Part shown: positions 1,599-33,500 of the stretch, piece by piece
Layout: each line of letters opens with the position of its first letter
Numbering within the stretch: position 1 is the first letter of the stretch
NCBI GenBank assembly: GCA_030430255.1
Contig: JAUIGD010000014.1
Span: 1-36,913 of the forward strand
Reading direction: 5' to 3'
Length of the DNA stretch: 36,913 bases
Source: Verrucomicrobiia bacterium
GTDB lineage: Bacteria; Verrucomicrobiota; Verrucomicrobiia; Verrucomicrobiales; DEV007
Program-made: the position numbers and the translations under genes
The notes under the pieces: generated by a model
What the model was told of the DNA's origin: nothing
What the model saw: the letters and a program-made list of their open reading frames with translations, nothing else
The model's database searches: none

Positions 1599-4500
1599 TC
1601 ACGGTCCCGTTGCCCCCGGCGCTCGTCGGGCGACCGTTCTCCTCACATTCGGCGGAATCGTGCTGATCACAGAGTCGCCATCGGGCCAACGCACCGTAAT
1701 CTGGGCGTCATCTTCATCCGAATCTTGGCCCAACCCGAACCAGAGGGCGGCCTCGCCTTGGCCCAGGTAGCCGCTGCCGGCGGTGATTTCTTTCGTCTGC
1801 GAGCGACCGCGATGCTCCACCGTGACGCGGGCGCCGACCGCGTGCGGGTTGCCCGGTGCGCCGGCGACGCGCACCTCGAGCATGCGGTTCGGGGCGTCCG
1901 CGCTGCCCGGCTCACCGAACAGGTAGACGGGGCCGTTGTTGGTGGCGAAGGCGAACTCGGGGCGGGCGTCGCGGTTGAGGTCGACCAAGGTCGCGGCGGT
2001 GACGCCGGCGCGGATCGCCAGGCCGCTCTCCGTCGGGCCGACCTCGGCGAACGTGCCATCGCCATTGCCGCGCAGGAGGGTGCTGAGACCGGCGTCCAGC
2101 CAACCGATCTCTGGCTGGGCACCGTAGAAATTCTGCCCCAGCAGGGCGTCGATGTGACCGTCGGCGTCGAGGTCGGTCAAGATCACGCCCTGCACGGTCG
2201 ACATCTGCGCCGCGCGCGGCAGCGGTCTGAGTTCGAAGGTCGCGCCCCCGTCGTTGATCAGCACGCAGGTCTCCAGGGTGTTCGCCTCGAGCCGCAGCGA
2301 GGTGTCGAGGCGGGTCTCGGTGTAGAGGTCAGCGAGACTCGAGCTGGCGAACTGGTGGAACGTCCCGAGCCGCTCGCGCAGGCCGGGCATGGCGAGGCTC
2401 GAGCAGCTGAGCCCGCGGCGCGGGTAGCAGGTCTCGCCCTCGAACTTGGCCTCGATGACCTGTTTGCGGCCGGAGCCGTCGAAGTCGCCGTAGAAGAGGA
2501 GTTCGGGCTTCTCTGGCGTCGCCTTGTAGGGGGTGTTCAACCCCTGGTTGCCGACCAGATAGTCGAGGTCGCCATCGCCGTCGAGGTCGGCGCCGGCGAT
2601 GCTGCGCCACCAGCCGAGGCGGTCGGCGATCCCGCTCTCGGCGGAGGCGTCCTCGAGGCTCCCGCCGCGGTTGAGGAAGACTTTGACCGGCCCCCACTCG
2701 CAGCAGATGAGGAGGTCGATCCAGCCGTCGCCGTCCGCGTCGGACCAGAGGGCGGCGGTGACGAGCCCGGCGCCGCGCAGGCCCTCGGCGGTGGCGGTCA
2801 CGTCGGTGAACTTCGGCCGGCCAGGGGTGGAGTCGTTGCGCAGCAGGGCGGAGGCGGGCGTCTCCGGGTAGGCGCCCGGGACCACGCGCCCGCCGACGAA
2901 GAGGTCGAGGTCGCCGTCGCGGTCGTAGTCGGCGGCCACGACGCAGGAACCGCTGTCGCGGCGGTCGGGCAGCGCGCCCTCCGGGGCTTTGGCGAAGGTG
3001 CCCGAGCCGTCGTTGAGATACAGGCGGTCGCGCAACCGCTCGCTACCGGGCTCGCACTCGACGCCGCCGGAGACGGCGTACAGGTCGGGGTCGCCATCGC
3101 GGTCGGCATCGAAGAAGAGCACGCCGAGATCTTCGGAAGCGGCGTCCGCAGCGAAGGTTTCGACGCCGGTCGGGACGAAGCGGGCGCCGCCTTCGTTGCG
3201 GGCGATCCGGCCGCCCTGCCCGGCGGCGGCGGCGAGGTAGAAGTCGGGGTCACCGTCGGCATCGACGTCCGCCCAGGCCATGCCCGGGCCGAGGACGGAG
3301 TGTTGATAGGGCAACAGGGTCTGGCGTCCGTAGTCGTCGTAGGGGGTCTCGCGATGGGTGAGCGCGGCGAGCGAGGGCGAGGCGATGTTGGCGAACCGTG
3401 GCCGCGGACGCGCCGGCGGCACCGGGGCGGGAGCGGGCTCCCCCGGCTGGGCGAGGGTGTGGGTGCGGCGCCCGGCCAGCGCGGCGAACTCCCCCACCCC
3501 GCCGTCTGGCCAGATGACGGTGGCGGAGGCCGTCGCCGCGCCGGCGGGCATGGCGAAGACCAGTTCCGGAGCATCGCAGGAGAGGAAGCCGGCGACCGGC
3601 TGCAACACGCCGATCTGGGTGGTCGCGCCGGCGGCGTCCGGGCGCAGTTCGACCCGGGCGCCGAGGGCCCCGCGGTTGCCGCCGCGGCCGGCGAGCTCGA
3701 TCTTGATCCAGCCGGTGTCGGCGTGGTTTTGATAGATCCTGACCGGCTCGTCGAGGCAGGCGGTGACGAGGTCGAGGTCGCCGTCGCCATCGAGGTCGCC
3801 CGCGGCGCCCGCGTAGCTCATGCCGAGGTGGTCGAGCCCCCAGGCGGCGCCGACGTTCTCGAAGCGGAGGCCGCCGCGGTTGGCGAAGGCGAGGTCGCGT
3901 TCCCTCCGCGGCGGCATGGGCTCATAGAAGTCCCACTCCTCCTGACCGATGTAGTCTCCGGGGGCGCGCTGGACGTCGGAGTTGTTGAAGCTGCGGGCGA
4001 CGCCGTTGGTGAAGTAGGCGTCGGGGCGACCGTCGAGGTCGAAGTCCTTCAGTTTCACCGACCAGCACCAGTCGCTGCTGGCCAGCCCCGCCAGGTAGGC
4101 GGCGTCGCAGAGCTGGCCGCTACCGTTGTTGAGGTAGAGGACGTTGTGCATGTACTGGCGCGGCACGGCCGAGGTGAGGAAGGGGCGGATGGCGCCGATC
4201 TCGCCCATGGTCGTCTTCGAGCGGTAGTGGTTGGTGCCGGCCATGTCGGCGACCAGCAGGTCGAGGCGGCCGTCGCCGTCGAGATCGGCGACGTCGCTGC
4301 CCATGGAGAACCACGGGGTGTGGGGCGCCACCGTCTCGATCACGTCAGTGAAGGTGCCGTCGCGGTTGTTGCGGTAGAGCCGGTCGGGGTCTTTGAAGTC
4401 GTTGGCGACGTAGAGGTCCGGCCAGCCGTCGCCGTCGTAGTCCCACCAGATCGCGGAGTTGCCGCGGTCGCGGCCGACCAGGCCGGAACCTGCCGTGATG

Positions 4501-5240
4501 TCCTCGAATTTGCCTCCGTTGTTTTGCAGGAGGACGTCCTCCCTACCCGCGTTGACGTAGGCGAGGCCGCCGCCCGGCTTCGGCACGAGGGCGTAGTAGC
4601 GGTCGAAGGGCGGCGTGATGCGGTACTCGCCATCGACCTCCTCGATCGGGTGTTCGGCGGGCCGGCCGCCGGCGCGTTCGAAGTCGCGCGTCAGCAGGAA
4701 GCAGTCGAGGTCGCCGTCGCGGTCGTAGTCGCAGAACGAGGCCGACAGCGAGGCGTCGGCGATCGCCAGGCCGAACTCCGCCGCGCGCTCGGTGAACTTC
4801 GCCCCGCCGCCGTTGACCCAGAGCTGGTTCGGGCTGTCGTAGCGGCAGACGTAGATGTCGAGGTCGCCGTCCGCGTCGATGTCCACCAAGGTCGCGCCCG
4901 CCGACCAGCGGTCGTCCTCCGGATCGGACAGAGCGAGCCCCGCCGCGCCGGTGATGTCTTCGAAGCGCATGCCGCCGAGGTTCCGGTAGAGCCGGTCGGG
5001 GCGGGGCCCGGAGGTGAGGAAGAGGTCGTGGAGGCCGTCGCCATCGAGGTCGCCCACCGCGATCCCTCCGCAGGCGAAGGCGCCGATGTAGAGGCGGTCG
5101 AGCGGGTGTTCGGTGTCGATCGGATTGACGAAGTCGACGCCCGTCCGCGCCGGCGGGAGCGGGGTGAACAGGGTTTCGGCGGAGGGGGCCGCGGCCGTGA
5201 GGCACGCGACGGCGAAGGCGGTGGGGACGCGTTTGGCCAT
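1599..5240 (-). CDS. VCBS/FG-GAP repeat-containing CRTAC1-like protein with ASPIC/UnbV domains (paralog 1)
   Basis: 1213-aa ORF; many DLDGDGDLD-type repeats (VGDLDGDGLHDLF, WWDYDGDGWPDLYVANDF); mid and C-terminal ASPIC/UnbV-like segments (GARVTVEHRGRSQTKEITAGSGYLGQGEAALWFGLG...ITVRWPDG); hydrophobic N-terminus. Confidence 0.9.
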   Translation of the reverse strand: MAKRVPTAFAVACLTAAAPSAETLFTPLPPARTGVDFVNPIDTEHPLDRLYIGAFACGGIAVGDLDGDGLHDLFLTSGPRPDRLYRNLGGMRFEDITGAAGLALSDPEDDRWSAGATLVDIDADGDLDIYVCRYDSPNQLWVNGGGAKFTERAAEFGLAIADASLSASFCDYDRDGDLDCFLLTRDFERAGGRPAEHPIEEVDGEYRITPPFDRYYALVPKPGGGLAYVNAGREDVLLQNNGGKFEDITAGSGLVGRDRGNSAIWWDYDGDGWPDLYVANDFKDPDRLYRNNRDGTFTDVIETVAPHTPWFSMGSDVADLDGDGRLDLLVADMAGTNHYRSKTTMGEIGAIRPFLTSAVPRQYMHNVLYLNNGSGQLCDAAYLAGLASSDWCWSVKLKDFDLDGRPDAYFTNGVARSFNNSDVQRAPGDYIGQEEWDFYEPMPPRRERDLAFANRGGLRFENVGAAWGLDHLGMSYAGAAGDLDGDGDLDLVTACLDEPVRIYQNHADTGWIKIELAGRGGNRGALGARVELRPDAAGATTQIGVLQPVAGFLSCDAPELVFAMPAGAATASATVIWPDGGVGEFAALAGRRTHTLAQPGEPAPAPVPPARPRPRFANIASPSLAALTHRETPYDDYGRQTLLPYQHSVLGPGMAWADVDADGDPDFYLAAAAGQGGRIARNEGGARFVPTGVETFAADAASEDLGVLFFDADRDGDPDLYAVSGGVECEPGSERLRDRLYLNDGSGTFAKAPEGALPDRRDSGSCVVAADYDRDGDLDLFVGGRVVPGAYPETPASALLRNDSTPGRPKFTDVTATAEGLRGAGLVTAALWSDADGDGWIDLLICCEWGPVKVFLNRGGSLEDASAESGIADRLGWWRSIAGADLDGDGDLDYLVGNQGLNTPYKATPEKPELLFYGDFDGSGRKQVIEAKFEGETCYPRRGLSCSSLAMPGLRERLGTFHQFASSSLADLYTETRLDTSLRLEANTLETCVLINDGGATFELRPLPRAAQMSTVQGVILTDLDADGHIDALLGQNFYGAQPEIGWLDAGLSTLLRGNGDGTFAEVGPTESGLAIRAGVTAATLVDLNRDARPEFAFATNNGPVYLFGEPGSADAPNRMLEVRVAGAPGNPHAVGARVTVEHRGRSQTKEITAGSGYLGQGEAALWFGLGQDSDEDDAQITVRWPDGDSVISTIPPNVRRTVARRAPGATGP

Positions 5241-7112: not shown

Positions 7113-10100
7113 TCAACGCAGGAACGCTTTGATTGTCAACCCATTGCGTAAAAAGACGAGGTCGGCCACGCCGTCTCCGTCGAGATCCGGAGAGGCGGCC
7201 CCGCTGGCCTGGCCGGTGACGACCACGCCGCTGGCGGTCGGGGGCGAGGCGGTGAAGCCGCCACGGCCGTCGCCCAGGAGCAGCACTCCGAGGCCACCGT
7301 CGAGGTGGCCGACTTCGGGCTGCGCGGCGAAGGAGTTCTGCGCCAGGACGGCATCGAGCTTTCCATCGCCGTCGAAGTCGCGCAGGGCGATGGCGTTGAC
7401 CGGGGCGAGCTGGGCGGCGAGGGGCAGCGGGTGGGGGGTGAACACGCCGGCGCCCTCGTTCCGCAGGACGACGCTCTCGAGCGTGTGTGCCTCGAGGCGG
7501 AGGGCATCGGCGAGGCCGGTGTCGCCGTAGAGGTCGGCGAGGGTCGAAGTGGCGAAGTTGTGGAAGGTGCCGACCCGCTCGCGCAATCCGGGGATGGCGT
7601 GTGACGAGCAGCTCAAGCCACGGCGGGGGAAGCAGATCTCGCCCTCGAACTTGGCCTCGATGAGGTTCGGACGGCCGGCGCCGCCGACGTCGCCGTAGAA
7701 GAGCAGTTCCGGTTTGTCGGGTTCGGGGTGGTAGGGGGTGTTGGTGCCGAAGTTGCCCGCGAGCAGGTCGAGATCACCATCGCCGTCGAGATCCCCCGCG
7801 GCGAGGGCCGACCACCATCCGTGGCGCAGCTCGGCCTCGCCGGCGTTCCGCGCCCGGAGCGGTGCGGCGTTGTCGCCGGTGTTGTACCAAAATTGCACCG
7901 GCCCCCATTCGGTGGCGAGCGCGAGGTCCGGCCGCGAATCGCCATCGAGGTCCGCCCAGAGCGCCGCCGCCACGAGGCCGGCGCCGCCGAGGCCGGGGAC
8001 GGAGGCGGTGATGTCGGTGAACTTCGGCGCGCCCGGCGCGGAGTCGTTGCGCAGCAGGCGAGATGCGGGGGGTTCCGGGTAGCGGCCGGGGACGACGCGG
8101 GAGCCGACGAAGAGGTCGAGGTCACCATCGCCGTCGAGGTCGCCCGCAGCGATGCAGGAAGAGCTGTCGCGGTGGTCGGGCAGCGCGGGGGAGGCGTCGA
8201 CGAAGCGGCCGCTGCCGTCGTTGAGGTAGAGGCGGTCGCGGTAGCGCCGCGAGCCAGGCTCCGCCTCGACCGAGCCGCTGGCGACGAAGAGGTCGGGCGC
8301 GCCGTCACCGTCGGCGTCGAAGAACAGTGCGGCGGAGTCTTCCGAAGCGGCATGGGCATCGAAGGGCCTGCTCGACTTCATGACCATCGCGCCGCTGCCG
8401 CGGTGGAAGTAGAGCCGCCCGGCGATCCCCGCCGAGCCGCCGAAGTAGAGGTCGTCGCGCCCGTCGGAATCGACGTCCGCCCAGGCCATCGCCGGTCCGA
8501 GCCGCGAGTGCTGGTAGGGCAAGAGGGGCTGGCGCGCGTAGTCGTCGAAGGGTGGCTCCTCGTGTTCCAGCCGCACCAGCGAGCAATCCGGCATCGGTCG
8601 GAACAAGGGTTCGGCGGCCGGTGCCGGCGGGGCGGGGCCGCCCTCGGCGGGTGCCAATGCGCGCGCCTCGCCGGCCTTGAGCGCGGGGTGGACGGTGGTC
8701 GCTCCATCCGGCCACGTCACGCGCAGCTCCCCCGCCCCGGCTCCGACCGCGAGGCAGAGCTCCATCGGCCCGCTCGAGAGAAACCCCGCGCCCGGCCGCA
8801 GCACCTCCGCCGCCCCGTCGCCGGGGCGCACGGTCGCACCGTGGGCCGACCCGCCCGGGAAGGTCACTTTGGCCCACCGGGTGCCGCCCTCCGCGCTCGC
8901 GTTCTGGTAGATCGCCACCGGCTCGTCGAGCGAGGCCACGACGAGGTCGGGGTCGAGGTCGCCGTCGAGGTCCGCCGCGACCGCCGCATAGCTCATCCCG
9001 GGGTGTTCGAGCCCCCAGGCGGCGGTGGCGTCCTCGAAGTGCAGCCCCCCGGCATTGCGGAAGGCGAGGTTCCGCTCCGGCCGGGGGGGCAGATCCTCGA
9101 AGTAGTCCCACTCCGGCTTGCCGATGAAGTCCGCGGCGGTGCGCTGGATGTCGCTGTCGTTGAAGTTGCGCGGCACGCCGTTGCTGAAGAAGACATCCTC
9201 GCGCCCGTCGCCGTCGAAGTCCTCGGCCACGACCGCCCAGGTCCAGTCGGAGTTCGCCAGCCCCGCGTGCAGCGCGGCGTCGGTGAGGATCCCGGTTCCG
9301 GTGTTCATGAGCAGGGCGTTGCGCATGTACTGGCGCGGCTCGGCGGTGAGCAGGAACTCGCGGCTGGCGCCCATCTCACCCATGGCGGTCTTCGACTTGT
9401 AGTGGCTGGTGCCCGCCATGTCGGCGACCAGCAGGTCCGGGCGCCCATCGCCGTCGAAGTCGCCGAGGTCGCAGCCCATCGAGAACCAGGTCGTGTGCGG
9501 GCAGGCCACCTTGATGACGTCGGTGAAGGTGCCGTCGCGGTTATTGCGGTAGAGCCGGTCGGGGTCTCTGAAGTCGTTGGCGACGTAGAGGTCCTGCCAG
9601 CCGTCGCCGTCGTAGTCCCACCAGATACAGGAATTGCCGCGGTCGCGGCCGACCAGGCCGGAACCCGCCGTGATGTCCTCGAAGCGCCCGCCATCGTTGC
9701 GCAAGAGGTAGTCCTCGCGGCCGGCGTTGATGTACTCGTACTTCCCGCCGGGCAACTCGCGCACGGCGTAGTAGCGGTCGAAGCCCTCCTTCACCCGCCA
9801 CCCGCCGCCGGCGAACTCCACGGGCGGCTCGGCGGGCCGGCCGCCGGCGCGCTCGAAGTCGCGCGTGAGCAGGAAGCAGTCGAGGTCGCCGTCGCGGTCG
9901 TAGTCGCAGAACGAGGCCGACAGCGAGGCGTCGGTGATCGCCAGGCCGAACTCCGCCGCGCGCTCGGTGAACTTCGCACCGCCGCCGTTGACCCAGAGCT
10001 GGTTCGGGCAGTCGTAGCGGCAGACATAGATGTCGAGGTCGCCGTCCGCGTCGATGTCCACCAAGGTCGCGCCCGCCGACCAGCGGTCGTCCTCCGGATC

Positions 10101-10412
10101 GGACAGAGCGAGCCCCGCCGCGCCGGTGATGTCTTCGAAGCGCAGGCCGCCGAGGTTGCGGTAGAGCCGGTCCGGCACCGGGCCGCCGGTGAGGAAGAGG
10201 TCGTGGAGGCCGTCGCCATCGAGGTCGCCCACCGCGATGCCGCCGCAGGCGAAGGCGCCGATGTAGAGGCGGTCGAGCGGGTGTTCGGTGTCGACCGGGT
10301 TGACGAAGTCGACCCCGGTGCGCGCGGCTGGGAGCTTGGCGAAAAGCGGTGCGGCCGGCGCGGCGACGGTCGGGCAGACGGCGGCGGTGAGGGCGTAGGC
10401 GAGGAGTCGCAT
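7113..10412 (-). CDS. VCBS/FG-GAP repeat-containing CRTAC1-like protein with one ASPIC/UnbV-like domain (paralog 2)
   Basis: Paralog of 1599..5240 with the same N-terminal TGVDFVNPVDTEHPLDRLYIGAFACGGIAVGDLDGDGLHDLF; start moved to ATG 10412 (MRLLAYALTAAVCPTVAAPAAP, signal-like). Ends without the C-terminal ASPIC domain of paralog 1. Confidence 0.88.
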   Translation of the reverse strand: MRLLAYALTAAVCPTVAAPAAPLFAKLPAARTGVDFVNPVDTEHPLDRLYIGAFACGGIAVGDLDGDGLHDLFLTGGPVPDRLYRNLGGLRFEDITGAAGLALSDPEDDRWSAGATLVDIDADGDLDIYVCRYDCPNQLWVNGGGAKFTERAAEFGLAITDASLSASFCDYDRDGDLDCFLLTRDFERAGGRPAEPPVEFAGGGWRVKEGFDRYYAVRELPGGKYEYINAGREDYLLRNDGGRFEDITAGSGLVGRDRGNSCIWWDYDGDGWQDLYVANDFRDPDRLYRNNRDGTFTDVIKVACPHTTWFSMGCDLGDFDGDGRPDLLVADMAGTSHYKSKTAMGEMGASREFLLTAEPRQYMRNALLMNTGTGILTDAALHAGLANSDWTWAVVAEDFDGDGREDVFFSNGVPRNFNDSDIQRTAADFIGKPEWDYFEDLPPRPERNLAFRNAGGLHFEDATAAWGLEHPGMSYAAVAADLDGDLDPDLVVASLDEPVAIYQNASAEGGTRWAKVTFPGGSAHGATVRPGDGAAEVLRPGAGFLSSGPMELCLAVGAGAGELRVTWPDGATTVHPALKAGEARALAPAEGGPAPPAPAAEPLFRPMPDCSLVRLEHEEPPFDDYARQPLLPYQHSRLGPAMAWADVDSDGRDDLYFGGSAGIAGRLYFHRGSGAMVMKSSRPFDAHAASEDSAALFFDADGDGAPDLFVASGSVEAEPGSRRYRDRLYLNDGSGRFVDASPALPDHRDSSSCIAAGDLDGDGDLDLFVGSRVVPGRYPEPPASRLLRNDSAPGAPKFTDITASVPGLGGAGLVAAALWADLDGDSRPDLALATEWGPVQFWYNTGDNAAPLRARNAGEAELRHGWWSALAAGDLDGDGDLDLLAGNFGTNTPYHPEPDKPELLFYGDVGGAGRPNLIEAKFEGEICFPRRGLSCSSHAIPGLRERVGTFHNFATSTLADLYGDTGLADALRLEAHTLESVVLRNEGAGVFTPHPLPLAAQLAPVNAIALRDFDGDGKLDAVLAQNSFAAQPEVGHLDGGLGVLLLGDGRGGFTASPPTASGVVVTGQASGAASPDLDGDGVADLVFLRNGLTIKAFLR

Positions 10413-10613
10413 GCGACCCGGACTATGGCCCCGGCGTGACGCGAGGGGCAAGCCGCTCCTGCTCGCCGGGCGGGGTGGCCCCCGGGGGGCTCGCCGGGCT
10501 TCCACCCGGTCCGATCGCGGCCCGTGTGGACGCCTGCCCCGATTCGGGGTGAACCGGGTCCGTTGCGGCTCCCCTTGACCTCGCGCCGAGGTCGGCGATG
10601 GTCGCGCCCGTCG

Positions 10614-11750
10614 ATGGCACTGCTCATCTTCTACGTCCTACTGGCGCTCGGCGTCTCCTTCCTGTGCTCGATCCTCGAGGCGACGTTGCTTACCGTGACG
10701 CCGGCGAACCTCGCTGCCGCCCAGACCAAGGGGGCGCGCTGGGCGCATAAGATGACCGAATTGAAGGAGGACATCGAGCGCCCGCTGGCGGCGATTTTGA
10801 CCCTCAACACGGTCGCCCACACCATGGGTGCGGCCGGCGCCGGGGCGCAGTGGGCGAAGATCACCGGCAACACTTACGAGGCGGTGTTCTCCGCCGCCCT
10901 GACCTTGGCGGTGCTGGTGTTCACCGAGATCATCCCCAAGACGCTCGGCGCCCGCTACGCGATGTTCTTCGCGCGGCCGGTGGCTCACCTGCTGCCCGTC
11001 ATGCAGGTCGCGCTGGCGCCGTTGGTGGTGGTCTCCAAGTGGATCACGCGCCTCATTACCTTCGGCAAGGCCGCCGCGGCGGAACCGATGCACCGCGAGG
11101 AACTGCTCGCCGCGACGCAGATCGGCGAGGCCGAGGGGGCGATCGGCGCCCAGGAGTCGATGGTGGTCAAAAACATCCTGCGCCTGCACGAGATGCCGGT
11201 CTCCTCGATCATGACGCCGCGCACGGTGTTGTTCGCGCTGCCTCAGTCGCTGAGTTTGGAGGAGTTCGTCGACCGCGCCGCCGATCGCCCGTTCTCGCGG
11301 GTGCCGATCTACGGTGAAAACCGCGATGACATCACCGGGGTCGTGCTGCGCACGGACGCCTTCATCGCCCGCCTGCGCCAGGTGGAGGGCGAAGCGGAGG
11401 TGCCGGCGACGGTCGAGTCGCTGAAGAAACCCGTCGAGCTCGTCCCGGCGACGATGACGGTCGATACGCTGTTCCAAACCTTCGCCGACCGCGGTAGCCA
11501 CCTCAAGCTGGTGGCGAACGAGTTTGGGGTATTGGTAGGGTTGGTCACCCTCGAGGACGTCCTCGAGACGATCGTCGGCGTCGAGATCATCGATGAGACC
11601 GACGAGGTCGCTGACCTGCAGAAGTTCGCCCGCGACCTGTGGCGCAAGCGGGCTTCGACCAAGGGCATCGAGCTCCCGGACGAAGACGAGGAGGAGGGCG
11701 CCGACGGTGGCTCGGGCGAGGGCTCGGGGGCGACGCGCGGGGAAGCTTAG
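10614..11750 (+). CDS. CNNM/CorC-HlyC family membrane protein (DUF21 plus CBS pair)
   Basis: MALLIFYVLLALGVSFLCSILEATLLTVTPANLAAA... hydrophobic DUF21 region, EIIPKTLGARYA motif, VSSIMTPRTVLFALP and VANEFGVLVGLVTLEDVLETIVG CBS motifs. ATG at 10614 preferred over the upstream start. Confidence 0.9.
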   Translation: MALLIFYVLLALGVSFLCSILEATLLTVTPANLAAAQTKGARWAHKMTELKEDIERPLAAILTLNTVAHTMGAAGAGAQWAKITGNTYEAVFSAALTLAVLVFTEIIPKTLGARYAMFFARPVAHLLPVMQVALAPLVVVSKWITRLITFGKAAAAEPMHREELLAATQIGEAEGAIGAQESMVVKNILRLHEMPVSSIMTPRTVLFALPQSLSLEEFVDRAADRPFSRVPIYGENRDDITGVVLRTDAFIARLRQVEGEAEVPATVESLKKPVELVPATMTVDTLFQTFADRGSHLKLVANEFGVLVGLVTLEDVLETIVGVEIIDETDEVADLQKFARDLWRKRASTKGIELPDEDEEEGADGGSGEGSGATRGEA

Positions 11751-11929
11751 CCCGAATCGATCACCAAGCTCCGGGCTGCGGCTCGCCCTCGTTGACGCTG
11801 AGGGTGTTGGCGTTGGGAACGGCTCGGGCAGGGTGTCCACCCAGCCGCTTCGCCGATCCCTGCCGCCGCCTACTCAGCGTTAACAAATGGCAGCGCCTCG
11901 CCTGCGAATGTGGTGATCGATCCGGGCTA
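11748..11929 (+). mobile_element. MITE-like 182-bp element, copy 1 (TIR GCCCGAATCGATCACCA / TGGTGATCGATCCGGGC, flanked by TA)
   Basis: About 94% identical by eye (11 differences in about 180) to the reverse complement of 23127..23308; terminal inverted repeats; TA at both ends; internal CGTTGACGCTGAG...CTCAGCGTTAAC inverted repeat. Confidence 0.7.
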
Positions 11930-11987
11930 GGGCGTGTTCGAATGCGCTTCGAGGCGCCAAATCTTGAGGGAGGAAGTGGTCCGTGGG

Positions 11988-12093
11988 GTTCCGCCCGGCC
12001 GCCTCGACATGGCTCTGGCCTCTTGCCATACGATCGGGGGGGCGCGGAGGCGGGACGCCTCCGGCACGGACATCGGCGGGACGCCGATGCCAC
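11988..12093 (+). repeat. 106-bp dispersed repeat, copy 1, ending in a double stem-GGA-stem hairpin
   Basis: gttccgcccggccgcctcgacatggctctggcctcttgcc...ggaggcgggacgcctccggcacggacatcggcgggacgccgatgccac; repeats at 12325..12430 with about 4 differences. Confidence 0.85.
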
Positions 12094-12324: not shown

Positions 12325-12430
12325 GTTCCGCCCGGCCGCCTCGACATGGCTCTGGCCTCTTGCTGTACGGTCGGGAGGGCGCGGAGGCGGGACGCCTCCG
12401 GCACGGACATCGGCGGGACGCCGATGCCAC
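12325..12430 (+). repeat. 106-bp dispersed repeat, copy 2
   Basis: Direct repeat of 11988..12093; ends 12 bp before the DUF1501 stop (12443). Confidence 0.85.
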
Positions 12431-12442
12431 CTCGCGACTCCG

Positions 12443-13711
12443 CTACACGAACAGCTCGGAGACGGGCTGGGCGCCTTTCTTGACCAGCTCCATGGGGCGG
12501 CCGAGCGGGGTGGTCATCGTCTTCGTGTAGTCGATGCCCAAGGCGTGGCAGACGGTGGCGTGGAGATCTTGCGGGGCGACCGGGCGCTCGGCGGGCAGGA
12601 TGCCGTCTTCGTCGGAGGCGCCGACCAGGGTGCCCCCCTTGATCCCGCCGCCGGCCATGAGGCAGCTGAAGCAGCGCGCGTGGTGGTCGCGCCCGCCGCC
12701 GTCGTTGACGCGGGGCGTGCGCCCGAACTCGGACAAGACCATGACCAGCGTGCGGTCGAGGCGGCCGTCGGCGGCGAGGTCTTCGATCAGCGTGCCGATC
12801 GCCGGGTCCATCACCGCACCGTGGCCGCGCATGGCCGTGAAGATGTCGCTGTGGTTGTCGAAGCCGCCGCGGTTGACCTGGACGAAGCGCACCCCGGTCG
12901 AGGTCAGCTTGTTCGCCAGCAAGGTCGCGCGGCCGAACTCGGTCTCGCCGTAGCGGGCGAGCGCCCGGTCGTCGTCGTCGGTGAGGTCGAAGGCCTTCAA
13001 GGCCGGGCTGCGCATGAGCGCGACGGCGTCCTCCAGCGCGGTCTCCGTGGCCTTCAGTTCGCGGCTGGAGAGATCGCGGCTCATCTTGCCGTTCATCTTC
13101 GCCAGCAGGTCGAGGCGGCGGTTCCCCTGGACTTTGGTGATGCCTTCGGGGAAGGCCAGGTAGGGGTCGCGCTCACCGGGCTGGCCGACGTAGTAGGCCT
13201 CGACCTTCTGCCCGAGGTAGCCCGCGCGGGGGGCCATGCCGCCGATGCTGATGTAGCTCGGCAGCGCGCCGAGCGGCTCGCATTCGTGGGCGATGATCGA
13301 GCCGATGCCCGGGTGGACGATGTTCGGGTTCTGCCCGTAGGAGGTCTGCAACTCGTAGGTGGCGCGGCCGTGGTCGCCGTTGGTGCCGGCGACCGAGCGG
13401 ACCAGGGCGGAGTGCTTCATCTGCGACGCGACCTTGGGGAACACCTCCGCGATCTCGATGCCGTCGACGCTGGTCTTGATCGGGCTGAAATCACCGGCGG
13501 TCGGCCGCCCCGGCTTCGGGTCCCAGGAGTCGATGTGGCTCATGCCGCCGCCGAGCCAGAACAGGATCACGTGGTCCGCCATCGGCGCGTGCGCTTTGCC
13601 GTACTCGGCGAACAGGCGTTGCAGGGGCATGCCCAGCACTGCGGCGGTCGTGCCGGTGGCGGCGGCGAGCATCTTGCGGCGGGTCAGGTAGTAGTCTCGG
13701 CAGGCGGACAT
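12443..13711 (-). CDS. DUF1501 domain-containing protein (sulfatase-like fold, exported)
   Basis: MSACRDYYLTRRKMLAAATGTTAAVLG leader followed by HVILFWLGGGMSHIDSWDPKPGRPTAGDFSPIKTSVDGIEIAEVFPKVASQM, ...LVMVLSEFGRTPRVNDGGGRDHHARCFSCLMAGGGIKGG; hallmark DUF1501 motifs. Confidence 0.93.
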   Translation of the reverse strand: MSACRDYYLTRRKMLAAATGTTAAVLGMPLQRLFAEYGKAHAPMADHVILFWLGGGMSHIDSWDPKPGRPTAGDFSPIKTSVDGIEIAEVFPKVASQMKHSALVRSVAGTNGDHGRATYELQTSYGQNPNIVHPGIGSIIAHECEPLGALPSYISIGGMAPRAGYLGQKVEAYYVGQPGERDPYLAFPEGITKVQGNRRLDLLAKMNGKMSRDLSSRELKATETALEDAVALMRSPALKAFDLTDDDDRALARYGETEFGRATLLANKLTSTGVRFVQVNRGGFDNHSDIFTAMRGHGAVMDPAIGTLIEDLAADGRLDRTLVMVLSEFGRTPRVNDGGGRDHHARCFSCLMAGGGIKGGTLVGASDEDGILPAERPVAPQDLHATVCHALGIDYTKTMTTPLGRPMELVKKGAQPVSELFV

Positions 13712-19926: not shown

Positions 19927-19934
19927 GCAAGTGG

Positions 19935-19953
19935 CATCGGCGTCCCGCCGATG
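19935..19953 (+). repeat. Hairpin CATCGGCG-TCC-CGCCGATG (GGA loop on minus strand)
   Basis: Perfect 8-bp stem, 3-nt loop; same unit in inverse orientation at 12071..12089 and 12408..12426, same orientation at 20058..20076. Confidence 0.85.
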
Positions 19954-19972
19954 TCCGTGCCGGAGGCGTGCC

Positions 19973-20045
19973 GATTCGCCGATGCGGGCAGGATGCCCGC
20001 GCTCCATCAACGCACGCGCTCCATCCTTCACTCGCGCGCCCGGCT
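19973..20045 (+). repeat. 73-bp direct repeat, copy A, containing hairpin GCGGGCA-GGA-TGCCCGC
   Basis: gattcgccgatgcgggcaggatgcccgcgctccatcaacgcacgcgctccatccttcactcgcgcgcccggct; recurs at 20161..20233 with about 3 differences. Confidence 0.9.
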
Positions 20046-20057
20046 AGCGGATCGTGG

Positions 20058-20102
20058 CATCGGCGTCCCGCCGATGTCCGTGCCGGAGGCGTCCCGCCTC
20101 CG
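20058..20102 (+). repeat. Double hairpin CATCGGCG-TCC-CGCCGATG / CGGAGGCG-TCC-CGCCTCCG
   Basis: Two perfect 8-bp stems with TCC loops separated by TCCGTGC; reverse complement of the double hairpins in 12045..12089 and 12382..12426. Confidence 0.9.
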
Positions 20103-20160
20103 CGCCTCGTTCGGAGCGCGAGCGTCGCCCGCCGTCCAGATCGTCCCGCCGCGCCCCCCC

Positions 20161-20233
20161 GATTCGCCGATGCGGGCTGGATGCCCGCGCTCCGTCAACG
20201 CACGCGCTCCGTCCTTCACTCGCGCGCCCGGCT
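20161..20233 (+). repeat. 73-bp direct repeat, copy B, overlapping the 3' end of dtd
   Basis: Near-identical to 19973..20045; includes the dtd stop (20216..20218). Confidence 0.9.
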
Positions 20234-23075: not shown

Positions 23076-23092
23076 GGAGGTTTCCAACCTCC
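23076..23092 (+). repeat. Hairpin GGAGGTT-TCC-AACCTCC
   Basis: Perfect 7-bp stem with TCC loop, 14 bp after the kinase stop. Confidence 0.7.
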
Positions 23093-23126
23093 ATGCCCCA
23101 CCCCGCCCTGCCCTCCGACTCGGAGC

Positions 23127-23308
23127 TAGCCCGGATCGATCACCACATCCGCAGGCGAGGCGCCGCCATTCGTTGACGCTGAGTAGGCGGCGGCAGGGAC
23201 AGGCGAAGCGGCTGGGTGAACACCCTGCCCGAGCCGGTCACCACGCCAACACCCTCAGCGTCAACGAGGGCGAGCCACAGCCCGGAGCTTGGTGATCGAT
23301 TCGGGCTA
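23127..23308 (-). mobile_element. MITE-like 182-bp element, copy 2 (inverse orientation to 11748..11929)
   Basis: TA-GCCCGGATCGATCACCA...TTGGTGATCGATTCGGGC-TA; same length as copy 1 and about 94% identical by eye. Confidence 0.7.
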
Positions 23309-30581: not shown

Positions 30582-33500
30582 TCAAAGCTCGCGCAGCTTC
30601 CCGTTGAGGCCGATCACCCGCATCGCGCCGGGTTGGGCGCTGCCGGCTGTCCAGTAGATCATGCGCACGTCGGCGGCCTCCAACTCTGCCAGCTGCGCGG
30701 CGCTGATGCCCTCCTCGAGCCGCGGCTCGAAGACGAAGTCCTCGGTGAAATTGTGGTGGCCGGGCCGGTAGGTCTGCGAGTAGTAGCCGCGCAGCACGAC
30801 CGGCTCCGAGGTCAGGCCGGTGATGGTGGTTTGCTCCCACTTCTCCAGCGGCGCGGTGTAGCCAGCGACCGGCCCGTTCGGCGCCGGTGGCCAATAGAAC
30901 TCGACCCGCAGGTTGATACCGCCCGCGCTCCCCTCGCGCACCTTCAGCTCACTGCCCTCCTGGGGCGGGTCATCGGGGTGCCCCTCGACCAACAGCACGA
31001 CGTCGCCGCGGGTCACCGAGCCGTTCCACGGCTCGCCGGGCTCGAGGACATCGACCGGGTAGTCGGCGCCGAAGTAGACCGTCAGGTCACCGAACGAGCG
31101 CAGCGGGTCGCCGGCGATCGCGCCCTGCTCGGGGAGCAGCGCCTGCAACCACATCCGTGTCGCCCCCGCCTCGGTCGACCAATCCCACGAGTCGCGGGCG
31201 TAGTGCGCGTTGCCCTCGATCTGGACGGTGAAGCCGTGGCCTGGCCAAATCGCCGGCGGCCCGACTTCGGTCGCCAGACCTCCCGGGATCGCGCTCTCGA
31301 CCTCGGCCGCGGCCAGCAGCGATCCGCCCGGTTCGGCACGCGGCACCCAGCGGTCGTCCCCGCGCACGCCCCACAGCGACTTGAGCCGGTGGTTGCCCAT
31401 CGCGGTGCCGGTCTCGCCTTGAAACACCTCCAGGGTCGCCGGGCTGCCGATCAGCGCCATCGCCGTCGCCTCCCCGGCCGGCGCCGCGGGCACCTCGCGC
31501 ATCTGTTTGATCACCAGGCTCCCGTCGGTCAGCTTCTTGTATTCGTACTCGAGCAGCGGCCTCGGGTTCTCGGGATAGCGTGCGACGAAGGCCTCGCCGA
31601 GCGCGTGGAACTTCCCCGCGAAGTCCAGGTAGTCGTCCTGCCAGCCCATCACCGCCTCCTCGCCGAGCAACAGAAGCGACGACCGCTGCACCAGGTCCGC
31701 TCCCTCGAAATTGAAGTTGCCGCGGTAGAACGTGGTGCGCACCACCTCGGGCACGGCGCCGCCCTCGGGGTTGGTCACCGACACCGCGCCGAGCTGGCTG
31801 ACCAGGTCGCCCTCGGTGTAGACGCTGCCGCCCGACGGCCGCCGCTCGACCGTCGCCACGCCGTTGGCGGCCTCGATCTCGTCGGGGAACGAGTGGTGGA
31901 CTAACAAAGCCATGCCGACCTGCGCCTCGTCGACCCCGTGCCGCAGGCGCTCGAGGTAGGCGTTGCGGTTGTAGAAGCTGGCGTAAACTTTGCGCATCGC
32001 CCGGAACACCCCGCGCTCCTCGGGCTGCTGGGGGTCGCAGTGCGAGGGCCCGGCCTCGTCGCCGTCGGTGTCGTCCATCACGCAACCGCTGAAGCTGTCA
32101 TAGAGCCCGGCGCCGACGAAGACGCCGCTGTCCTCGACGTTCGTGCTGCTGCGGAAGCGGAGTTTGCGCATCGGGTCGAAACCCGCCAGCGCGGCGAGGA
32201 TCCCGGCGCGCTGGGGGGAGGTGAAGTCGGCCTCGTCCTCGATCAGGTCGCGCACCCCCGCCAGCGTCGCGTCGAGCCCGGCGATGTCCGGCGGCCACGA
32301 GGAATAGGGCGCCAGGCGCGCGGCGATCTCCGCCCGCAGCGACCGCTCGCCCAGCGCTTGATCGAGATACCCGTCCCACAGGTCGAAGGTGAACGCCACC
32401 GCCTCCGGCGAGTTCGCCGGCACCCCGCGGCGCAGGAACCCGAAGTTCGCCGCCTTGCCGCCGATCGTGCCGATGTCTTCAGGCCAGACCCCGGAGAGGT
32501 CGGCCACCGCGATCGCCCCGGCCGCCACCTTCGGCGTGATCGCCAGCGGCGGCGGCGCTTTGAGCGCCAGGATCTCGTCGCGGTAGGCGTCCGACATCGC
32601 GCCCGCGTCCAGCAGGCGGATCGCGCAGTCGTAGAAGCCCTCGCTGATGCGCAGGGCGACCTGATGCCCGTCGAGCGCCAGGGCGGCCTGCCGCTCCGGC
32701 TCGGTCGCGAGGTATCCAAATGACACACCGTACGACTCGGCGAGGATGGCCACGTGGGAATTGGGGGTGCTCGGGGAGAGGCTCAAGATCCCGGCCAGGA
32801 ACGGCAGCTCGGCGGGCACCCAATCGGTCACCAAGATGTCCGTCGGCAGCAGCGCGCCCGACAGGTAGGCGGCTTCGATCCCATCGTGCGCCACATAGCG
32901 CAGCCGCCCCAGCGCCCATCCCTCGACGTAGCACCCGCCCTGGCCGGACCAGCGGTCGGGCTCGGCCAAGGGGATCCCCGCCGCCTCGAACCAATCGGCG
33001 TCGCGGCGCAGGGCCGCCGCGTGGGCCGGCACCGGCATCAGGTAGCCGCGCCACTCCCCGCCGCGGTCGAGCTTCGCCTCCACCGTGTGATAGAGGAAGC
33101 GCAAGGACTCGCGCGGGAACGGCTCGTCGCCGACGACCTGCACGGCGAACTCCTTCCTGAACGGCGCGACCAGGACCGCGCCGAGCAGCGCCCTCCGCCC
33201 GCGCACGGGCAGGGTCGCGGCGTCGAACTCCGCCGTCGTCATCCCCGCGAAGGGCGCCAGCCGTTCGGTCGCGAAATCGTAGTGGAACAGGTAGCGCCGC
33301 GAATCTTGGAAATAGACCTCGGTGGCGTCGTCGAGGAGGACGGCAAACTTGCACCACCGCACGGTCTCGAAGGACTCGCCGAGGTTTTCGGAGAGGAACG
33401 GCTCGTCGGCCAGATCGAGGCGCGCCTTCCACGCCTCGTGCGGGGCGATGGACGGCGGCGCCGCCTCGGCTGCGCGGAACAGGCGGGCGGGGCCGGCCCC

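Follow-up and report, generated by a model that had tools for sequence, protein, structure and literature searches.

RAYTs are viewed as domesticated transposases retained for an unknown benefit. In relatives of the enzymes considered here, TnpAREP binds folded single-stranded DNA, reads the foot and the loop of a hairpin (or a bulge in its stem) and cuts by means of a tyrosine.

REP elements of the GTAG superfamily were described by Di Nocera et al. 2013 (PMC3733652). Head-to-tail dimers are rare among the described REP families, and REPs lying in frame inside proteins are known (PMC3733652). The rule for REPtrons is that each REP family is paired with its own RAYT, and unusually long TnpAY1 proteins were dropped from an earlier survey as fusions or annotation errors (PMC6006769). 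According to PMC8266576, a REP composed of GTAG, an 8-bp perfect stem and a 3-nt loop is cleaved by its TnpAREP only if foot and loop are correct; cleavage drops severely or is lost once the loop is reversed or the foot altered, and GTGG feet are cleaved by a different TnpAREP.

Hairpins with a common loop

The window, that is, the whole stretch of DNA that was analyzed, comprises 36,913 nucleotides of a Verrucomicrobiia bacterium (GCA_030430255.1, contig JAUIGD010000014.1). A preliminary description of this sequence listed six hairpins enclosing GGA (TCC on the opposite strand), and all six were found where it had placed them. Four further hairpins with this loop were absent from that description (19935-19953, 20058-20076, 20084-20102 and 31017-31035; TCC on the plus strand). 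Of the 14 perfect hairpins in the window (3-nt loop, stem of at least 7 bp), 10 have the GGA/TCC loop, compared with a mean of 0.25 and a maximum of 3 such hairpins in second-order Markov sequences (n=200). The predicted enrichment of GGA/TCC over other 3-nt loops was borne out in a genome sample of 60 contigs (463,992 bases) picked regardless of hairpins. GGA/TCC was the commonest loop there (14 versus 2.6 expected), while the next loops reached at most about 2-fold over expectation, none being clearly enriched. The Markov controls, run for both the window and the 464-kb sample, rule out chance in GC-rich DNA. In the complete 6.63-Mb genome the GGCGGGACGCC core occurs 244 times versus 36 for the reversed control.

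Most of these hairpins could be assigned to two putative REP families.

12041..12093, minus strand: family 1 head-to-tail doublet, recognized by exact copies elsewhere in the genome and by its borders; foot GTGG 12090-12093, hairpin 1 (CATCGGCG-TCC-CGCCGATG) 12071-12089, hairpin 2 (CGGAGGCG-TCC-CGCCTCCG) 12045-12063, tail reaching 12041
12378..12430, minus strand: family 1 doublet identical to that at 12041..12093; foot 12427-12430, hairpin 1 12408-12426, hairpin 2 12382-12400
19931..19973, plus strand: partial family 1 copy; foot and hairpin 1 (19935-19953) intact, hairpin 2 broken (CGGAGGCG then TGCCGATTCG)
19984..20005, minus strand: family 2 copy; foot GGAG(C) 20001-20005, hairpin GCGGGCA-TCC-TGCCCGC 19984-20000
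20054..20106, plus strand: family 1 doublet; foot GTGG 20054-20057, hairpin 1 20058-20076, hairpin 2 20084-20102
20172..20193, minus strand: second family 2 copy with one stem mismatch (GCGGGCATCCAGCCCGC), in a 75-nt direct repeat of the first copy
23076..23092, plus strand: hairpin GGAGGTT-TCC-AACCTCC, one of the six described earlier, without the foot of either family and left unassigned
31017..31035, plus strand: hairpin CGAGCCGT-TCC-ACGGCTCG, without a REP foot; it lies within an ORF with a PPDK_N domain and may be due to chance

Two families of dispersed repeats

Read on the TCC strand, the family 1 unit is a 53-nt doublet, GTGG-CATCGGCG-TCC-CGCCGATG-TCC-GTGC-CGGAGGCG-TCC-CGCCTCCG-CGCC. 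It behaves as a dispersed, high-copy palindrome: the genome contains about 70 doublets (49 bases, at most 3 mismatches) versus 0 in the control, and hairpin 1 alone is present in 116 copies at no more than 1 mismatch. The borders are sharp in 43 distinct copies, which start with GTGG (contained in the pattern used for their retrieval) and end with CTCCGcGCC. Such abrupt borders between unrelated flanks are expected of a mobile unit. The folded 49-mer of the doublet is much more stable than its shuffled versions on both strands. All six frames of its consensus are free of stop codons, which is unremarkable at 70% GC; the copies of both families in the window fall outside Pfam-supported ORFs. 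Family 2 (consensus GGAGC-GCGRGCR-TCY-YGCYCGC) has 30 genome copies with up to 3 mismatches, and the control has none.

An unpaired GT[AG]G foot at the 5' side is present in family 1 (GTGG), while family 2 has GGAG. Judging from these features, family 1 appears to be a new REP family of the GTRG kind. Two other identities were rejected. In a REPIN, inverted REPs form one long hairpin, whereas the dispersed unit is a direct, head-to-tail repeat of two hairpins; and CGTC, which would define a CGTC REP, occurs only at the stem-loop junction, never at the foot.

Two other kinds of repeats were observed in the window. The first is a 183-nt inverted repeat (94%; 11748-11930 on the plus strand and 23126-23308 on the minus strand), a second dispersed repeat that is more abundant than the doublet, its core CGGCTCGCCCTCGTTGACGCT occurring 321 times in the genome (at most 2 mismatches) versus 0 in the control. 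The second involves two large FG-GAP/UnbV_ASPIC repeat proteins (1599-5240 and 7113-10505, both on the minus strand), which resemble paralogues arranged in tandem with an offset of about 5.2 kb.

Variable stems and constant loops

The preliminary description spoke of several different stems sharing one loop. The four hairpins at 12 kb are not independent stems, because they belong to two copies of one 53-nt unit; both doublets sit in a 109-nt local direct repeat. Genome-wide, however, stem covariation was found. Copies were chosen solely on the left arm of their first hairpin before hairpin 2 was examined, so that the pairing of the latter was not selected for. Among 20 distinct second hairpins, bases paired in 93.1% of cells, compared with 84.4% after shuffling and at most 64% in slid controls, and two-sided changes were seen at four base pairs. 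The stem is thus kept by compensatory change. Family 2 stems show compensated changes too.

A rival view is that one ancestral repeat was multiplied by segmental duplication, the loop being constant through common descent without structural selection. The 109-nt repeat would fit, as would a locus (L120) where four units are spaced about 215 nt apart. Yet the flanks of the 43 copies are otherwise unrelated, stems have been altered on both sides with pairing retained, and what family 2 and the REPs of other genomes have in common is foot and loop, not the stem. We regard simple duplication as extremely improbable.

Termination had also been suggested for these hairpins. In this case they would be transcription terminators or stabilizers of mRNA 3' ends, their common loop reflecting RNA folding or protection from RNase. 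Two doublets do lie between convergent ORFs, the one at 12378..12430 ending 13 bp away from the DUF1501 stop codon, and REPs can take on such roles in other bacteria (PMC3733652). But the T-run that accompanies the GC-rich hairpin of an intrinsic terminator is missing 3' of the hairpins, the terminator scan picks other sites, and Rfam gives no matching family. Nor would such a role explain the sharp borders typical of mobile elements, the inverted copies around RAYTs or the copies inside coding sequences. We consider it highly improbable. As a separate observation, terminator-like sites are located near the doublets, but distinct from them, at 12454-12472 (plus strand) and 12180-12164 (minus strand) of the window.

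It had further been proposed that GNA trinucleotide loops form unusually stable DNA mini-hairpins, making the two strands unequal. The foot-bearing strand has TCC, and the complement of the second commonest loop, TCT, is AGA, which is not of the GNA type. Nearest-neighbour energies of the two hairpin strands are equal, as computed with a model that may omit the GNA bonus. This idea may hold, and our explanation does not depend on it.

RAYT genes associated with the repeats

The search for a Y1 (REP-associated) transposase, which the preliminary description recommended, was successful: the genome codes for RAYTs, and each REP family flanks its own. The genome has 12 matches to PF01797. The RAYT at C590 has the window's doublet on each side in inverted orientation, and that at C494 lies between family 2 type hairpins. 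The NCBIfam profile REP_Tyr_transpos (NF047646) gives 89.2 bits for C494 and 79.8 for C590, just under the cut-off of 80. In a PDB search the sole credible match was TnpAREP (4ER8, 1.7e-6), and HxH, W and Y of the motif are invariant across 17 relatives. Motif, single catalytic Tyr and profile score are those of RAYT/TnpAREP, with C590 at the borderline (79.8 vs 80), and each gene flanked by its own REP family has the organization of a REPtron; two families, each with its own RAYT, agree with the REPtron rule (PMC6006769).

Two other candidate partners were rejected, as no window-type REPs adjoin them: an IS200-like gene at C425 and a group of eight Y1 genes. The latter are near-identical, code for 360-420 aa (L035-L042; C167, C332, C436, C293, C32, C641, C91 and C390) and are possibly of the TIR-flanked (TIRYT) type.

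Of the 388 genomes searched within the phylum, 195 contain RAYT relatives; a separate collection yielded relatives from Verrucomicrobiota, Planctomycetota, Acidobacteriota, Chloroflexota, Bacteroidota, Proteobacteria and others. Inverted GT[AG]G hairpins bracket most of the closest RAYTs, with stems that differ by genome and loops that are mostly TCC or TCT. In a second RAYT set, searched with loops of 2-6 nt of any sequence admitted, TCC accounted for 38 and TCT for 13 of the 92 flanking hairpins. The exact first stem of the window is present in just 3 of the 388 genomes. Likewise, the REP stem flanking the RAYT of genome G320 is multi-copy there and absent from the five other genomes compared.

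Recognition by a RAYT-like single-strand transposase, one of the possibilities raised earlier, is therefore supported by RAYTs flanked by both families and by loops constant across genomes, and it fits the published role of foot and loop (PMC8266576). Since flanking REPs elsewhere share TCC/TCT loops and not stems, the stem-variable, loop-constant pattern is, by this comparison, a property of the RAYT enzyme family. Taken together, the hairpins are very probably REP elements and substrates of a RAYT (TnpAREP) HUH/Y1 transposase, with one family 1 copy nested in ispG. Counting against this reading is the head-to-tail doublet, given the rarity of such dimers in described REP families (PMC3733652).

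RAYTs nested in frame in host genes

At C590 the RAYT lies in frame inside ispG, within an open frame of 1108 codons without a stop. The order is the N-terminal part of IspG, the translated doublet (GIGVPPMSVPAASRR), the RAYT, the translated inverted doublet (RRDADAT) and the C-terminal part of IspG. At C627 a RAYT is in frame in metH (1506 codons), between the B12-binding and activation domains. For the metH-nested RAYT, a relative of that at C590, no recognizable upstream REP was found. The RAYT-bearing ispG and metH are the only ones found in this genome. IspG similarity to named Akkermansiaceae MAGs suggests that the genome belongs to Verrucomicrobiota, in the order of Akkermansiaceae, and not to a planctomycete, as its DUF1501/PSCyt1 genes might indicate. 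The assembly is fragmented, 89% complete and has an estimated contamination of 6.75%, so that a further copy of ispG or metH may have escaped assembly; more complete relatives nevertheless repeat the pattern.

Using Pfam scans, we identified the hosts of 44 long-frame RAYT proteins from this and other genomes. Hosts include IspG, MetH, ValRS, LeuRS, AlaRS, CarB, PriA, HsdR, a DinG-like helicase, GH38, creatininase, DUF1156 and Eco57I methylases; in TatD, fumarase and NT5C the RAYT is C-terminal. The ends of the insert are translated REPs (GIGVPPMSVPAASRR... and ...RRDADAT), and no Pfam intein domain was detected in the scanned host-RAYT fusions. DUF1156 DNA methylases with an in-frame RAYT were seen at L212, L216, L222, L228, L233 and L239, in several phyla and with at least two insertion sites, judged from the length of the N-terminal part. 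Bacteria carrying a nested RAYT include Chloroflexales bacterium ZM16-3 (L220) and Viridilinea mediisalina (L239).

Recognizable parts of one host were present on both sides of the RAYT at 42 of 112 loci. In 41 of these 42, a count that includes related insertions and covers only host families with at least one in-frame case, both parts share the strand and frame of the RAYT. In the remaining one the C-terminal part is off frame, and no antisense case was found. Independent assemblies with different REPs show nesting in one and the same host. The ispG gene exists only in interrupted form in three genomes, and metH likewise in three, while relatives have uninterrupted ones. An IspG alignment revealed reciprocal empty sites: the insert in the present genome occurs where the sequences of G320 and G244 are continuous, and vice versa. 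In G255 (L154), which belongs to the same genus as G244, ispG is uninterrupted and has GATGCCCCAGCCAC at the site of the G244 RAYT, possibly a scar of the right end left by excision or deletion. Nested RAYTs have diverged almost to saturation at synonymous sites, too far for dating the insertions or for telling selection before nesting from selection after it.

The in-frame RAYTs might instead be pseudogene-making insertions or assembly chimeras from which no fusion is made. The examples do come mostly from metagenome assemblies, and the earlier survey took overlong TnpAY1 proteins for fusions or annotation errors and left them out (PMC6006769). This is hard to reconcile with 41 of 42 cases being sense and in frame on both sides and none antisense, or with the same host appearing in independent assemblies with different REPs. 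Moreover, the interrupted ispG or metH is the sole copy in five genomes, one of them assembled as a single contig, and the IspG sequence flanking the RAYT retains the conserved Cys and C-terminal motifs. We find this explanation distinctly unlikely.

No ATG occurs within 45 codons 5' of the core in 35 of 44 nested RAYTs compared with 8 of 32 stand-alone ones (Fisher P = 2.4e-6; rows are not independent and GTG/TTG starts are left out of the count). The simplest reading is that nested RAYTs would be translated as part of the host protein. At C590 an IspG-RAYT-IspG fusion is most likely made, and IspG most likely still works in it, as no other ispG was found. Modelling an IspG-RAYT fusion from Akkermansiaceae with AlphaFold (five-sequence alignment) gave a mean pLDDT of 50, too poor for use.

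If fusions are made, the RAYT domain might have been domesticated as a working part of the host enzyme and no longer be a mobile passenger. Nested RAYTs retain their catalytic residues and mostly lack a nearby ATG, and DUF1156 and Eco57I-type DNA methylases are recurrent hosts in several phyla, all of which would suit this possibility. However, the hosts have no common function (isoprenoid and methionine synthesis, tRNA charging, carbamoyl phosphate), insertion sites vary within one host, and the same-genus relative lacks the insert and has a possible scar. We therefore think domestication unlikely.

Proposed mechanism

We infer binding, cleavage, mobility, and the expression and function of the fusions from sequence evidence. 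REPs would be short non-autonomous repeats consisting of a GTRG-type foot, a perfect 7-9 bp stem and a TCC loop. The RAYT is predicted to bind single-stranded DNA in its folded form by contacting foot and loop, the GTGG...TCC strand being the substrate; this mode of binding would explain the conservation of foot and loop and the drift of a stem that stays paired. By nicking near the hairpin with its tyrosine, the RAYT would enable copies to spread, probably from single-stranded DNA exposed during replication. The autonomous form of family 1 would be the copy composed of doublet, RAYT and inverted doublet, in frame in ispG, and the dispersed doublets would be non-autonomous ends of this ispG-type element. 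Insertions into genes would survive only if they are in frame and in a tolerant loop. Once nested, the RAYT may be protected, as its imprecise loss would break a needed gene.

We lean towards an in-frame passenger lifestyle of RAYTs, in which REP ends are open in the host frame, insertion is into a linker or loop of an essential enzyme, the RAYT has lost its own start and host expression is used. If true, it would help to explain the retention of RAYTs, their vertical inheritance and their usually low copy number, a frameshift or imprecise RAYT loss being damaging to the host gene, and why the loop and foot of the hairpins are fixed and the stem is not. RAYTs in frame in conserved, often essential genes (IspG, MetH, ValRS, AlaRS, LeuRS and CarB) would offer a testable reason for RAYT persistence, and could be why some enzymes in public databases are oddly long. 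REP/RAYT pairs with free stems and fixed loops may also serve as a natural series for testing how hairpins are read.

In the freely searchable literature we found no report of RAYT genes nested in frame in housekeeping genes. The arrangement is found in many bacterial phyla and has apparently been overlooked so far. While REPs, RAYTs and in-frame REPs in proteins are already known, the in-frame passenger state of RAYTs is the novel part.

Comparison with known systems

Compared by description, the GTAG-20 family of Opitutus terrae (PMC3733652) is similar in its GTRG foot (GTGG in most copies), 6-9 bp stems, 2-3 nt loops, subfamilies with complementary stem changes and high copy number, with some copies in frame inside genes. 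The differences here are the TCC loop, the fixed head-to-tail doublet with a GTGC second foot, and a second family with the GGAG foot. REPtron Sm of S. maltophilia (PMC8266576), which has a group 3 TnpAREP, also resembles our system. Its 23-nt REP consists of a foot, an 8-bp perfect stem and a 3-nt loop, and loop and foot are the recognition determinants. In that REP, however, they are GCT and GTAG, whereas in the window they are TCC and GTGG, and the accessible part of its description says nothing of its RAYT being nested in another gene.

As in REPIN/BIME, paired REPs would spread as one unit mobilized in trans by a RAYT. REPIN pairs are inverted, whereas those described here are direct (head-to-tail), inverted pairs being mostly those formed by the two ends of the RAYT element. 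Rickettsia palindromic elements (RPE) are likewise palindromic repeats that lie in frame in housekeeping genes and are translated. We know of no RPE carrying a transposase gene; here, in contrast, the transposase itself is the in-frame insert. Finally, the Y1 HUH enzyme, the subterminal hairpins and the foot as a guide are shared with IS200/IS605. Unlike in IS200/IS605, the protein is of the RAYT type, inverted REP doublets form the ends of the element, and most nested cases have no nearby ATG.
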